Below the pieces are notes generated by a model. It had not been told where the DNA came from. It saw nothing but the letters and a program-made list of their open reading frames with translations, and did no database searches. A program made the position numbers and the translations under genes. A stretch of DNA of 64,000 nt from Bacteroidota bacterium (GTDB taxonomy: Bacteria; Bacteroidota; Bacteroidia; NS11-12g; UBA955), in contig JAMLHC010000005.1 of the NCBI GenBank assembly GCA_023957335.1, positions 186,001 to 250,000 of the forward strand, in the 5' to 3' direction. Numbering within the stretch: position 1 is the stretch's first letter; every line of letters starts with the position of its first letter. This document shows positions 8,252 to 46,629 of the stretch, one piece after another.

Positions 8252-8282
8252 TTGCAAGCGTTGTATTGTTGGTATTATTTTG
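8252..8282 (+). promoter_or_regulatory. Candidate dnaB promoter
   Basis: TTG at 8252-8254, a 20-bp spacer and TTATTTTG at 8275-8282 (one mismatch to TAnnTTTG). The box ends 8 nt before the ATG at 8291, so the leader would be only a few nucleotides. Confidence 0.35.
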
Positions 8283-8290
8283 CTTGCTGA

Positions 8291-9868
8291 ATGAACGAGA
8301 GATTGTCAAATAGAAATTTAGGAAAAAAGAATAAGCAAAGTGCTGAATTGATTACGGCTTTAGACACAATGGGTCGAAAAGTGCCTGCGGCTCTTGATAT
8401 GGAACAAGCGGTGCTGGGTGCGCTATTGTTGGATGGCACTTCTATGCTTAGAATACAAGAAATATTAATGCCGGAATACTTCTATGACGAAAAAAATCAA
8501 TTTGTCTTTAATGCAATTCGTTCTTTGGTTGAAAGAAACGAGCCAATAGACCTTTTAACTGTTATTGAAAAACTTAGAGCACAAGAAAAACTTGAGTTTG
8601 TTGGAGGCGAGTTCTATGTGAGTGAACTGACAATGAAGGTTACATCCTCTGCAAATATTGAATTTCATGCCCATATAATCGTTGAAAAATATGTACAGAG
8701 AGTTTTGATTAACATTTGTGGTGAAACCATCAGAGATGCGTATGAGCCTAGTGCAGATGCCTTTGCACTATTGGATGACACCGAAAAGAAAATCTATGAA
8801 ATCAAAAACAAGGGCATGAAGCGTAATTATGAAGGCATTGATAATCTGGTTGCAAAAGCTTTAATGCAAATTGAAGCCAATACCAAACATACTTCTGACG
8901 TAACGGGCGTGCCAAGTGGTATTGCAAGCGTGGACAGGATTACTTCGGGTTGGCAAAAATCAGATTTGATTATCATTGCCGGTCGTCCTGGTATGGGTAA
9001 AACTGCATTTGCGCTTACCATGCTCAGAAATGCAGCAGTCGGTCACAATGTTCCGGTGGCATTCTTTTCATTGGAGATGTCTGCAGTTCAGTTGGTTACA
9101 CGTATGATATCTGCCGAAGCAGAGATTAGTTCCGAAGATTTGAGAAAAGGTAATCTGATGGAACACCAATGGCAACAAATTGTTACCAAAACCCAAACTC
9201 TTTCTCAAGCCCCGATTTTTATTGATGACACTCCAAGTTTGTCTGTATTTGAATTAAAAGCTAAAGCCAGAAGGCTACATTCACAACACGGCATTGGAAT
9301 GATAATGGTGGACTATTTACAGTTGATGAAAGGCGATGAGGTAAAAGAATCTAAAATGAACAGAGAGCAGGAAATTAGCCATATTTCCCGTTCCTTGAAA
9401 ACATTGGCTAAGGAGCTCAACATCCCTGTTATTGCACTTGCACAGTTGAGTCGTGAAACCGAAAAAAGAACAGATAAAACGCCACAACTTTCTGACCTGC
9501 GCGAATCGGGATCTATTGAACAAGATGCAGATATGGTGGCGTTTATATACCGTGATGATTATTACAACAAAACCGAAGAGGATATGTCCAATGCAGTAGG
9601 TACGGCTTCCAAATTAATTATAAAGAAACACAGAAATGGTTCAATAGGTGATGCGAATATGTTCTTTAGCAAGAGAGTGCAAAGGTTTGTGGATGAATCT
9701 GAGTCTATGATTGCAAATTATGTAATGCAATCTAAAATGAATCAATCAGGAGAAGAAATGAACTCTTTTAAAGATGCTATAAGTCATAAAGGAAATATTT
9801 TTGATACCGGCAATGATTCTCCTTTTGATGGCGCCTCCGATACAGAAGCTAACTTCTTTGATAATTAA
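8291..9868 (+). CDS. dnaB: Replicative DNA helicase DnaB
   Basis: 525 residues. DnaB is the hexameric 5'-3' helicase of the replication fork. The N-terminal helical domain (about 30-140) begins with the family phrase PAALDMEQAVLGALLLD; the RecA-like domain has Walker A GRPGMGKT (231-238), Walker B MIMVDYLQLM (337-346) and the late motif LRESGSIEQDAD. The C-terminal tail of about 60 residues after the core is acidic and Asn/Ser-rich. No intein is present, unlike in some DnaB genes. It is monocistronic, divergent from clpC. Confidence 0.96.
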   Translation: MNERLSNRNLGKKNKQSAELITALDTMGRKVPAALDMEQAVLGALLLDGTSMLRIQEILMPEYFYDEKNQFVFNAIRSLVERNEPIDLLTVIEKLRAQEKLEFVGGEFYVSELTMKVTSSANIEFHAHIIVEKYVQRVLINICGETIRDAYEPSADAFALLDDTEKKIYEIKNKGMKRNYEGIDNLVAKALMQIEANTKHTSDVTGVPSGIASVDRITSGWQKSDLIIIAGRPGMGKTAFALTMLRNAAVGHNVPVAFFSLEMSAVQLVTRMISAEAEISSEDLRKGNLMEHQWQQIVTKTQTLSQAPIFIDDTPSLSVFELKAKARRLHSQHGIGMIMVDYLQLMKGDEVKESKMNREQEISHISRSLKTLAKELNIPVIALAQLSRETEKRTDKTPQLSDLRESGSIEQDADMVAFIYRDDYYNKTEEDMSNAVGTASKLIIKKHRNGSIGDANMFFSKRVQRFVDESESMIANYVMQSKMNQSGEEMNSFKDAISHKGNIFDTGNDSPFDGASDTEANFFDN

Positions 9869-43914: not shown

Positions 43915-43945
43915 TCGCCTTATTTAGAATGATTAAAAAATAATT

Positions 43946-43963
43946 TCGGATATGCTTGTCCGA
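43946..43963. promoter_or_regulatory. Inverted repeat over the -33 element of the Rrf2-ric-azurin operon
   Basis: TCGGATA-TGCT-TGTCCGA has 7-bp arms with one mismatch and covers the -33 TTG. Placement is ideal for repression, most likely by the Rrf2 regulator encoded 45 bp downstream. Which protein binds is inferred. Confidence 0.5.
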
Positions 43964-43986
43964 GATGCAAAATCAGTATATTTTTG
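43956..43986 (+). promoter_or_regulatory. Promoter of the Rrf2-methyltransferase-ric-azurin operon
   Basis: TTG at 43956-43958, a 20-bp spacer and TATTTTTG at 43979-43986 match the Bacteroidota consensus, 22 nt before the ATG of the Rrf2 gene. Confidence 0.55.
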
Positions 43987-44008
43987 CACCCGTTAAAAAA
44001 ACAAATTC

Positions 44009-44443
44009 ATGTTTTCCAAATCTTGTGAATACGGCATAAAAGCCACTTTATACATCGCAACCAATTCGCTTGTGGGAAAGAGAGTTAGTTTACATGAAAT
44101 TGCCGAAGATATTGATTCTCCCAAAGCATTTACAGCCAAGATTTTACAACATCTTTCCAAAAATGGCATTATTACCTCTACTAAAGGTCCCAGCGGAGGT
44201 TTTGAAATAGATTTAGGTGATATGTTATCTATAAAATTAAACAAGATTGTCCAAGCATTTGATGGAGATGATATCTACAAAGGTTGTGGGTTAGGATTGA
44301 GTGAGTGTAATGACAGCAAACCTTGTCCGGTTCATTCAAGGTTTAAGGATATTAGAGAAAATTTGAGAAAAATGCTTGAAACAACGAGCATTTTGGAATT
44401 AACGAATGGGTTAAATGAAGGATTGACCTTTTTAAAACATTAA
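44009..44443 (+). CDS. Rrf2-family [Fe-S] transcriptional regulator, NsrR-like
   Basis: 144 residues. The winged-helix N-terminus has CEYGIKATLYIA, SLHEIAEDIDSPKAFTAKILQHLSKNGII and SGGFEI, the Rrf2 pattern. Three cysteines that would hold a Fe-S cluster are at C93, C100 and C106 (C-x6-C-x5-C), close to the NsrR/IscR spacing. Rrf2 members with this cluster sense nitric oxide, iron-sulfur status or redox stress. Being the first gene of an operon with RIC and azurin, an NsrR-like sensor of nitric oxide is the best guess; IscR-like is the alternative. A dyad overlaps its promoter. Confidence 0.88.
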   Translation: MFSKSCEYGIKATLYIATNSLVGKRVSLHEIAEDIDSPKAFTAKILQHLSKNGIITSTKGPSGGFEIDLGDMLSIKLNKIVQAFDGDDIYKGCGLGLSECNDSKPCPVHSRFKDIRENLRKMLETTSILELTNGLNEGLTFLKH

Positions 44444-44473
44444 TTTGAAAAAGAAACAGACAATATAAAAATT

Positions 44474-45244
44474 ATGGAAGTAACAGATTTTTCAAAAGCA
44501 CAAGGTCACTGGATTTTAGCTAAAATGGGAAAGAAAGTATTGCGTCCCGGAGGCAAAGAATTAACCGAGAAGTTGGTTTCCGGTCTTGATATACAACCTA
44601 ATGATGATATAGTAGAGTTTGCGCCCGGCTTGGGGTACACCGCCTCTCTCGCATTACAAAATCATCCGCATACCTATGTAGGTGTAGATGCAGACGAAGA
44701 AGCAATTAAAATATTGAACCAAAAACTCAAAGGAGATAATGTTCAGTTTATTCTGGGGCAGGCCTCAGAAACACACCTTAAAGATGAATCCAAAGATAAA
44801 GTCTATGGAGAAGCCATGTTAACAATGCATGCAGACCATCGAAAATCAGAAATCATCAGAGAATCACATAGAATCCTTAAAAAAGGTGGATTATATGCCA
44901 TTCATGAATTAGGTCTTGTAGGTGTAACAGAAGAGCTGAAAAACACTATTCAGCATGATCTTGCCCTTTGTATCAAAGTAAATGCTCGCCCTCTGACCGA
45001 AGATGAATGGAAAGCATTGTTGGAGAAAGAAGGGTTTAAAATTAAAAAGGTGTACACTAATGCCATGCATCTTTTGGAAAGCAAACGAATCTTTGACGAT
45101 GAAGGTTTCTGGCGAGCTATCAAAATCACATTTAATATATTGAGAAATAAACCGGCTCGCATGAGAATTAATGAGATGAAAAGTGTATTCAAAAAACACG
45201 ACAAACACATGAACTCTATTGCTATCATTGCCGAAAAAATTTAG
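44474..45244 (+). CDS. Class I SAM-dependent methyltransferase
   Basis: 256 residues. The SAM-binding motif I is DDIVEFAPGLGYTASLAL (E/D-x-G-x-G), motif II has TYVGVDADEEAIKIL, and the later ESHRILKKGGLYAIHELG is the usual post-motif III. The C-terminal part (about 170-256) is helical and basic, without a known cap. The methyl acceptor is unknown. It lies between the Rrf2 regulator (30 nt) and ric (24 nt), so it is presumably expressed with the stress genes; similar genes have no defined role in iron-sulfur repair. Confidence 0.85.
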   Translation: MEVTDFSKAQGHWILAKMGKKVLRPGGKELTEKLVSGLDIQPNDDIVEFAPGLGYTASLALQNHPHTYVGVDADEEAIKILNQKLKGDNVQFILGQASETHLKDESKDKVYGEAMLTMHADHRKSEIIRESHRILKKGGLYAIHELGLVGVTEELKNTIQHDLALCIKVNARPLTEDEWKALLEKEGFKIKKVYTNAMHLLESKRIFDDEGFWRAIKITFNILRNKPARMRINEMKSVFKKHDKHMNSIAIIAEKI

Positions 45245-45268
45245 AAATAAACAAATTATATAATCATC

Positions 45269-45988
45269 ATGGAAATATCAAAAAATTCAATCGTAGGAGA
45301 TTTGGTAGCACAAGACTACCGTGTAGCCTCAGTATTCAAGCAACAAGGAATTGACTTTTGTTGCAATGGCAATCGCTCAATCGCAGATGTCTGTCAACAA
45401 GATAATATTGCTGTAGAACCACTCATTGATGCATTGAAAGAAGCAGCACAAAACAAAGGTGGTTCAAGTATTGACTACACTTCATGGCCTCTTGACCTCT
45501 TAGCAGATTATATTGAAAAAACACATCACAGATATGTTGAAACTAAATCAAGAGAGATTATGCCATTCTTGGAGAAAATTGTACGTGTACATGGAGAAAG
45601 ACATCCGGAATTGGAAACAGTAGAACAGCTGTTTAATGCGTCAGTAGGGGAGCTTGCTATGCACATGAAAAAAGAAGAATTGGTGCTTTTTCCTGCAATC
45701 AGAAAAATGGTTCAAGCAAAATTACAAGGAGTTAAATCTGATGCACCCGTTGGCAGTATTGCCGCCCCCATAAATGCAATGATGCAAGAGCATGATACTG
45801 AGGGAGAAAGATTTAGGCAGATATCCAAACTCACTCAAAATTATACAGTTCCTGCCGATGGTTGTAATACATATAAAGTTACATTATTTATGTTGCAGGA
45901 ATTCGAAGAAGATTTACATTTGCACATCCATTTGGAGAACAACATTCTATTCCCAAAATCAATAGAAATGGAAGCTCAGATGGCTTAA
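45269..45988 (+). CDS. ric: Iron-sulfur cluster repair di-iron protein RIC (YtfE/ScdA)
   Basis: 239 residues. The N-terminal ScdA_N/DUF542 domain contains the CCNG motif (C31, C32) and the VAQDYRVASVFKQQGIDF phrase. The C-terminal hemerythrin-like domain (about 75-235) has its iron-ligand histidines and glutamates in KTHHRYVE, RVHGERHPE, MHMKKEELVLFPAI, MQEHDTEG, and HIHLENNILFP. RIC repairs iron-sulfur clusters damaged by nitric oxide or peroxide and may deliver iron. It is third in the operon and followed 39 nt later by azurin. Identity is firm. Confidence 0.95.
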   Translation: MEISKNSIVGDLVAQDYRVASVFKQQGIDFCCNGNRSIADVCQQDNIAVEPLIDALKEAAQNKGGSSIDYTSWPLDLLADYIEKTHHRYVETKSREIMPFLEKIVRVHGERHPELETVEQLFNASVGELAMHMKKEELVLFPAIRKMVQAKLQGVKSDAPVGSIAAPINAMMQEHDTEGERFRQISKLTQNYTVPADGCNTYKVTLFMLQEFEEDLHLHIHLENNILFPKSIEMEAQMA

Positions 45989-46027
45989 GAACGAAACCTT
46001 TATAAAACAAAAATAAATAAATCAAAA

Positions 46028-46564
46028 ATGAAAAAATCAATTTTAACCCTTGCAAGTGTAGCATTCTTATTTGCTGCTTGTAACAACACACCTGCTACCG
46101 AAACAACTGAAACAACTCAGGACACAACTGCAACAACTGCACCTGAAACACCTGCTGCTCCTGCACAAGAAGAAGCTGCTGCACCTGCAGTTGCTGAAGT
46201 TACTATTGAAGGTAACGATCAAATGAAGTTTAACCTTACTGAAATCAAAGTAAAAGAAGGTCAAACTGTAAAACTTACGCTAAACCACGTGGGTAAAGCT
46301 CCTAAAGCTGTTATGGGACACAATCTTGTAATACTAGCTTCTGGCGTTGACATGATGGCTTTTTCTAAAGATGCAATCAGTGCTAAAGCTACTGATTATA
46401 TTCCTGAAAAAGATTTGAAAAACATCATTGCTCACACCAAGTTAATTGGTGGTGGAGAAAGTGATGTAATTGAATTTCAAGCACCAGCGAAAGGAACTTA
46501 TGATTTCTTATGTTCTTTCCCCGGTCATTCTGCTCTAATGAAAGGTAAATTTATCGTAGAATAA
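46028..46564 (+). CDS. azu: Azurin-type blue copper lipoprotein
   Basis: 178 residues. A lipobox FAAC (Cys18) ends the signal, then a Thr/Glu/Ala/Pro-rich linker of about 35 residues, partly from repeated ACAACT-like codons near 46097-46145, separates the anchor from the azurin fold. The fold starts at VTIEGNDQMKFN and has copper ligands His98 (MGHN, after Gly97), Cys162, His167 and Met171 (LCSFPGHSALM). The IIAHTKLIGGGESD segment is nearly azurin-standard. Unlike classical azurins it has no disulfide: the only cysteines are C18 and C162. It carries electrons on the periplasmic face, in other bacteria to nitrite reductase or peroxidases. Its operon ends with a strong terminator. Confidence 0.92.
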   Translation: MKKSILTLASVAFLFAACNNTPATETTETTQDTTATTAPETPAAPAQEEAAAPAVAEVTIEGNDQMKFNLTEIKVKEGQTVKLTLNHVGKAPKAVMGHNLVILASGVDMMAFSKDAISAKATDYIPEKDLKNIIAHTKLIGGGESDVIEFQAPAKGTYDFLCSFPGHSALMKGKFIVE

Positions 46565-46588
46565 TAAATAACAAAAAATAAAGGTTTG

Positions 46589-46616
46589 AAAAAGGGGCTG
46601 TGTAAGCCCCTTTTTT
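46589..46616 (+). terminator. Intrinsic terminator after azurin
   Basis: An 11-bp stem (46589-46599 with 46605-46615) with GGGGCT/AGCCCC core and a 5-nt loop ends in six T. It begins 25 nt past the azurin stop. Confidence 0.85.
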
Positions 46617-46629
46617 ATTGCTTTAAGAA

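Follow-up and report, generated by a model that had tools for sequence, protein, structure and literature searches.

A candidate nitric oxide-responsive Rrf2 operon with a promoter-embedded operator and a conserved methyltransferase in a denitrifying Bacteroidota bacterium

We identified a four-gene unit in a 64,000-nucleotide stretch of a Bacteroidota genome (contig JAMLHC010000005.1; the whole stretch is referred to here as the window) that is probably an autoregulated nitric oxide (NO) response operon of a denitrifying Bacteroidota bacterium, in which a cluster-bearing Rrf2 repressor would sit on a palindrome and be relieved by NO. This reading draws on the gene order of the unit, the conservation and promoter register of its operator, the linkage of a methyltransferase gene to ric and the denitrification genes of the host, all observed at the level of sequence. 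The predicted operator places a conserved methyltransferase, a TDO-like heme enzyme and a tyrosine phenol-lyase within the predicted NO regulon, and the switch and the methyltransferase recur beside other NO genes across the phylum.

The open reading frame list of the window places all four genes on the + strand. In order, they encode an Rrf2-family regulator (44009-44443; 144 aa; PF02082, 81 bits), a class I SAM methyltransferase (MTase; 44474-45244; 256 aa; PF08241/PF13649), a RIC/YtfE/ScdA-type di-iron Fe-S cluster repair protein (45269-45988; 239 aa) and an azurin-type lipoprotein (46028-46564; 178 aa; lipobox Cys18). The original prediction of four co-directional genes separated by 24-39 nt and closed by a strong terminator was borne out, with measured gaps of 30, 24 and 39 nt and a predicted Rho-independent terminator (13-pair stem with a T run) at 46587-46617 on the + strand. 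Genes for parA, parB and a DUF5683 protein lie 5' of the operon, and a MacB/FtsX-type permease gene lies 3' of it. The RIC protein scored 238.4 bits against TIGR03652 (cut-off 204.7) and carries ScdA_N (PF04405) and hemerythrin (PF01814) domains. The azurin scored 119.7 bits against TIGR02695 (cut-off 105.1), and its type-1 copper ligands G97, H98, C162, H167 and M171 are invariant in the alignment.

An 18-bp dyad, TCGGATA-TGCT-TGTCCGA, had been proposed to sit on the -33 element of the operon promoter. The dyad is present at 43946-43963 on the + strand, with one inter-arm mismatch, and does lie on the -33 element, but it is only the core of a longer conserved element of about 24-26 bp with the form ATTTNNGAYA-N4-TRTCNNAAAT. 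In the window, this predicted operator is the 26-bp imperfect palindrome AATTTCGGATATGCTTGTCCGAGATG (43942-43967, + strand). The palindrome precedes the Rrf2 gene in about 18 of 21 loci, and related sites were found in more than 20 loci. From 17 sites upstream of orthologous Rrf2 genes we built a 26-bp scoring matrix (consensus TATTTAAGACAAATTTGTCCTAAATA); the window site, itself among the 17 used for training, scored 24.8, whereas no other position in the window scored above 9.1. The bare 18-mer with three mismatches allowed was not unusual within the window; the significance of the dyad comes from its conservation across loci. Its interpretation as a terminator of the upstream gene rests on a weak minus-strand flag, and conservation with promoter register argues against it.

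Sites held out from the matrix were found in front of several other genes. Four lie directly before MTase genes with no adjacent upstream rrf2 (L034, 31.2; L046, 29.8; L051, 28.7; L054, 21.5), two before truncated globin (trHb) genes (L048, 31.7; L050, 25.7), two before the HTHP region (L038, 19.2; L041, 21.1) and one before c37 (L058, 26.5). Scores above 18 were obtained at 26 positions in 597 kb of real loci and at none in 20 Markov-shuffled null sets. Globin, HTHP, RIC, hemerythrin, NnrS, cbb3 and NOR-like genes are neighbors at the operator and MTase loci. We had checked whether the dyad is absent from orthologous operons, and found it conserved there as well as before other NO-related genes. 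A scan of 395 phylum genomes that did not rely on proteins found the exact operator pattern 19 times and the reversed control pattern 6 times. Of the ten scan sites scoring at least 20, seven lie in front of genes for Rrf2, CcoNO, tyrosine phenol-lyase or azurin, two fall between divergently oriented genes for membrane proteins (one DUF2238-like), and one is within coding sequence.

Bacteroidota promoters carry TTTG at -33 and TAnnTTTG at -7. In the window, the -33 element CTTG (43955-43958, + strand) falls within the right arm of the operator, in a register common to 28 further sites, and the -7 element TATTTTTG (43979-43986, + strand) follows 20 nt past it. We analyzed register and symmetry over 51 distinct sites, after five weak sites judged spurious had been removed by hand. 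An exact TAnnTTTG occurs 19-23 nt past a fixed right-arm position in 29 of the 51, always towards the regulated gene, and in most of these 29 the fixed position itself reads TTTG. Because this position is the -33 element, a bound protein would cover it, which is the geometry of a repressor. The arms also covary, as expected if a symmetric dimer reads the site: we counted 464 complementary inter-arm matches against 436.7 +/- 8.0 expected from 2000 shuffles, a comparison that is not a strict probability because the sites are related by descent. Covariation was strongest at the outer arm positions 4, 5 and 1. Such a fixed register between the predicted operator and the -33 box offers a direct route to mapping the regulon.

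The regulator (44009-44443) was predicted to carry three cluster-type cysteines, and these (C93, C100 and C106) are invariant among 18 aligned Rrf2 members, as are C6 and H109. Most members have an acidic residue (E7) at the position of Asp8, a cluster ligand in NsrR (PMC13404960), in the alignment; three members have K, V or Q instead. The window protein falls below the NsrR equivalog PRK11014/NF008240 (26.6 bits; cut-off 182) and IscR TIGR02010 (51.4 bits; cut-off 207.55), and is likewise below the curated cut-offs for RirA and CymR. We therefore call it NsrR-like rather than NsrR; the best reading is that it represses an NO regulon as a distinct Rrf2 protein resembling NsrR. An Rrf2 of the same group was present in all 18 operator-bearing genomes tested, with strong scores in 17; in the operator-bearing genome G452 the Rrf2 match was weak, at 62 bits. 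Many group Rrf2 genes in these genomes adjoin RIC, trHb, TDO-like or azurin genes.

The protein could instead sense the Fe-S supply, oxygen or redox state of the cell in the manner of IscR or RirA, and the operon could be a general Fe-S or oxidative-stress unit. H109 occupies the position of an IscR cluster ligand, and the IscR model outscores the NsrR model. HTHP, which has known peroxidase-like activity, and a SufT-like DUF59 gene would also fit oxidative or Fe-S stress. We consider this explanation unlikely, however, because NO-related partners (RIC, NnrS, globin and NOR-like genes) are commoner than Fe-S-assembly genes and because the acidic residue at position 7 aligns with the NsrR ligand position.

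Members of the Bacteroidota are prominent among non-canonical denitrifiers and consumers of N2O. The genome that contains the window is that of a denitrifier: its copper nitrite reductase, NirK, and its NosZ, which is of the Sec-dependent clade II type, both scored above cut-off. It also carries a second NO locus (C6; L154:5475-13228), with a RIC containing five DUF2249 repeats, a DUF2249/DUF1858 gene, NnrS-like and SufT-like genes and a second Rrf2 gene. A perfect palindrome, AATAAAGGACAAGGTTGTCCTTTATT, lies there at 8274-8299, after the second Rrf2 gene and upstream of genes for CoxII- and COX1-like proteins, SCO and cytochrome c; by context, the CoxII/COX1-like pair is a candidate NO reductase. 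Among the stretches of this genome scanned with the matrix, the operon site and the L154 palindrome were the only strong and correctly placed sites, and no site was detected near nirK or nosZ. A loose IUPAC scan of the same genome gave 108 matches against 71 for the control and was too loose to use. NosZ was found above cut-off in 5 of the 7 MTase-bearing genomes checked and in none of 10 MTase-lacking genomes of the same family, a comparison confounded by kinship; one genome of the same genus (G001) has no NosZ above cut-off. Rrf2 genes have been noted beside clade II nosZ (PMC6264515).

The MTase (44474-45244) belongs to a distinct, highly conserved subfamily. Relatives were found at 72 genome loci in Bacteroidota and Ignavibacteria, and 57 aligned members share 53-86% identity with the window protein and long invariant motifs, with no conserved cysteine. 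We asked whether the gene is conserved beside ric: ric follows it directly in 31 of 71 loci, with gaps of -17 to 36 nt. The fuller operons run Rrf2, HTHP, truncated globin, membrane protein, TDO-like, MTase, RIC, azurin, DUF488 and hemerythrin, and the TDO-like gene directly precedes the MTase in 11 of the 11 loci that have one. In L053, L056 and L086 the MTase joins a cluster of DUF2249-RIC, DUF2249, NnrS and DUF59 genes, and with L085 and L169 these loci place it within or beside DUF2249-RIC/NnrS operons. An independent draw of 395 phylum genomes contained the MTase in five genomes besides the window's own (about 1.5%); ric is directly adjacent in two of the five, and a third locus lies about 5 kb from nosZ. 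This linkage, together with the operator before NO-related genes and the denitrifier genome, supports the nitrosative-stress reading of the original prediction, in which NO sensing itself is deduced.

The sparse distribution could mean that the MTase is an operon passenger with an unrelated housekeeping role. Some of its loci have no NO genes nearby, and its fold is that of a generic class I small-molecule methyltransferase. Such a role is nevertheless very unlikely, given the recurrent position before ric and after the TDO-like gene, the operator directly before the MTase where no rrf2 adjoins it, and its place in or beside DUF2249-RIC/NnrS operons.

The predicted structure of the MTase is a confident class I fold (pLDDT 90.8), and the matches to this fold (TleD, phosphoethanolamine MT and RebM) were generic class I enzymes that indicate no substrate. 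The closest curated family is the DVU_1556 family methyltransferase (NF045667), at 67.8 bits far below its cut-off of 155. We rejected ArsM arsenite methyltransferase (NF008823; 44.8 bits, cut-off 263), whose assignment is also at odds with the lack of conserved cysteines, and UbiE/MenG quinone methyltransferase (TIGR01934; 27 bits, cut-off 158.35). The TDO-like gene, at L025:3040-3978 and ten more loci, encodes a divergent protein resembling tryptophan 2,3-dioxygenase (97.5 bits against a cut-off of 390.7). Tyrosine phenol-lyase genes adjoin the MTase in L033 and L082. The gene at L033:2548-3912, directly upstream of the MTase, is of the tyrosine phenol-lyase cluster, and that at L118:1500-3013 (TIGR02618, above cut-off) stands behind the same operator as the window operon. 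One speculative and distinctly improbable proposal is that the MTase and these aromatic-amino-acid enzymes act in one pathway that clears nitrated or nitrosated aromatics formed through the action of NO. If true, the NO response would include repair of small molecules alongside Fe-S repair.

For the operon as a whole, we infer the following sequence of events. An Rrf2 dimer with a cysteine-ligated Fe-S cluster would bind the palindrome, overlap the -33 box and exclude RNA polymerase. NO produced by nitrite reduction would then damage or nitrosylate the cluster, so that the repressor would leave and the operon would be expressed. RIC would repair Fe-S centers, the azurin lipoprotein would carry periplasmic electrons, plausibly to NirK or an NO reductase, and the MTase would be a constant component of the response that modifies some small molecule. 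Points against this reading are that some MTase loci carry neither ric nor an operator within 4 kb, that the Rrf2 protein scores below the NsrR cut-off, that no site was detected near nirK or nosZ of the host, that the Rrf2 match in G452 is weak and that G001 has no NosZ above cut-off.

Crp/Fnr-type NO regulators recognize a TTGAT-N4-ATCAA box. That such a regulator (HcpR, NnrR or DNR) binds the palindrome, with the Rrf2 gene one of its targets, is likewise very unlikely. In its favor, regulation of dnrN by HcpR has been reported in Bacteroides fragilis (PMC1274295), and Crp-type genes (c15) occur in several loci. Against it, the half-sites here are spaced GAY-N6-RTC, unlike that box, most loci have the site in front of the Rrf2 gene itself, and such an Rrf2 is present in every operator-bearing genome tested.

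The preferred reading, an NO-relieved Rrf2 repressor, has precedent. NO-responsive Rrf2 regulons are already known: those of NsrR, in proteobacteria and in Gram-positives (Rodionov et al. 2005, PMC1274295), likewise pair an Rrf2 regulator with a palindromic operator and control ric/dnrN, nnrS, globin and denitrification genes, and a tehB homologue has been reported as a member. Here too a palindromic operator precedes NO-detoxification genes including ric, although its sequence is unlike the proteobacterial motif. The Bacteroidota system further differs in that its Rrf2 is below the equivalog cut-off, its operator is fused to the Bacteroidota -33 element, and HTHP, TDO-like, tyrosine phenol-lyase, MTase and azurin are extra members. 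The HcpR regulon of Bacteroides also controls dnrN (RIC) in B. fragilis (PMC1274295), but HcpR is of the Crp/Fnr family and has a different type of DNA site, unlike the Rrf2 of the window operon. In the open-licence literature searched, absence from which is weak evidence, we found no description of a Bacteroidota Rrf2 NO regulon with a defined operator, nor of a -33-locked operator or the membership of MTase, TDO-like, HTHP and tyrosine phenol-lyase genes.

Two genomes belonging to a single genus carry operator-like sites, at L121:400 (22.0) and L122:1500 (20.9), in the region where membrane-protein genes diverge; one of these genes is DUF2238-like. In L040, L064, L128, L143 and L154 the operator ends read AATAAA/TTTATT rather than ATTT/AAAT, a subtype that is possibly read by Rrf2 paralogues.
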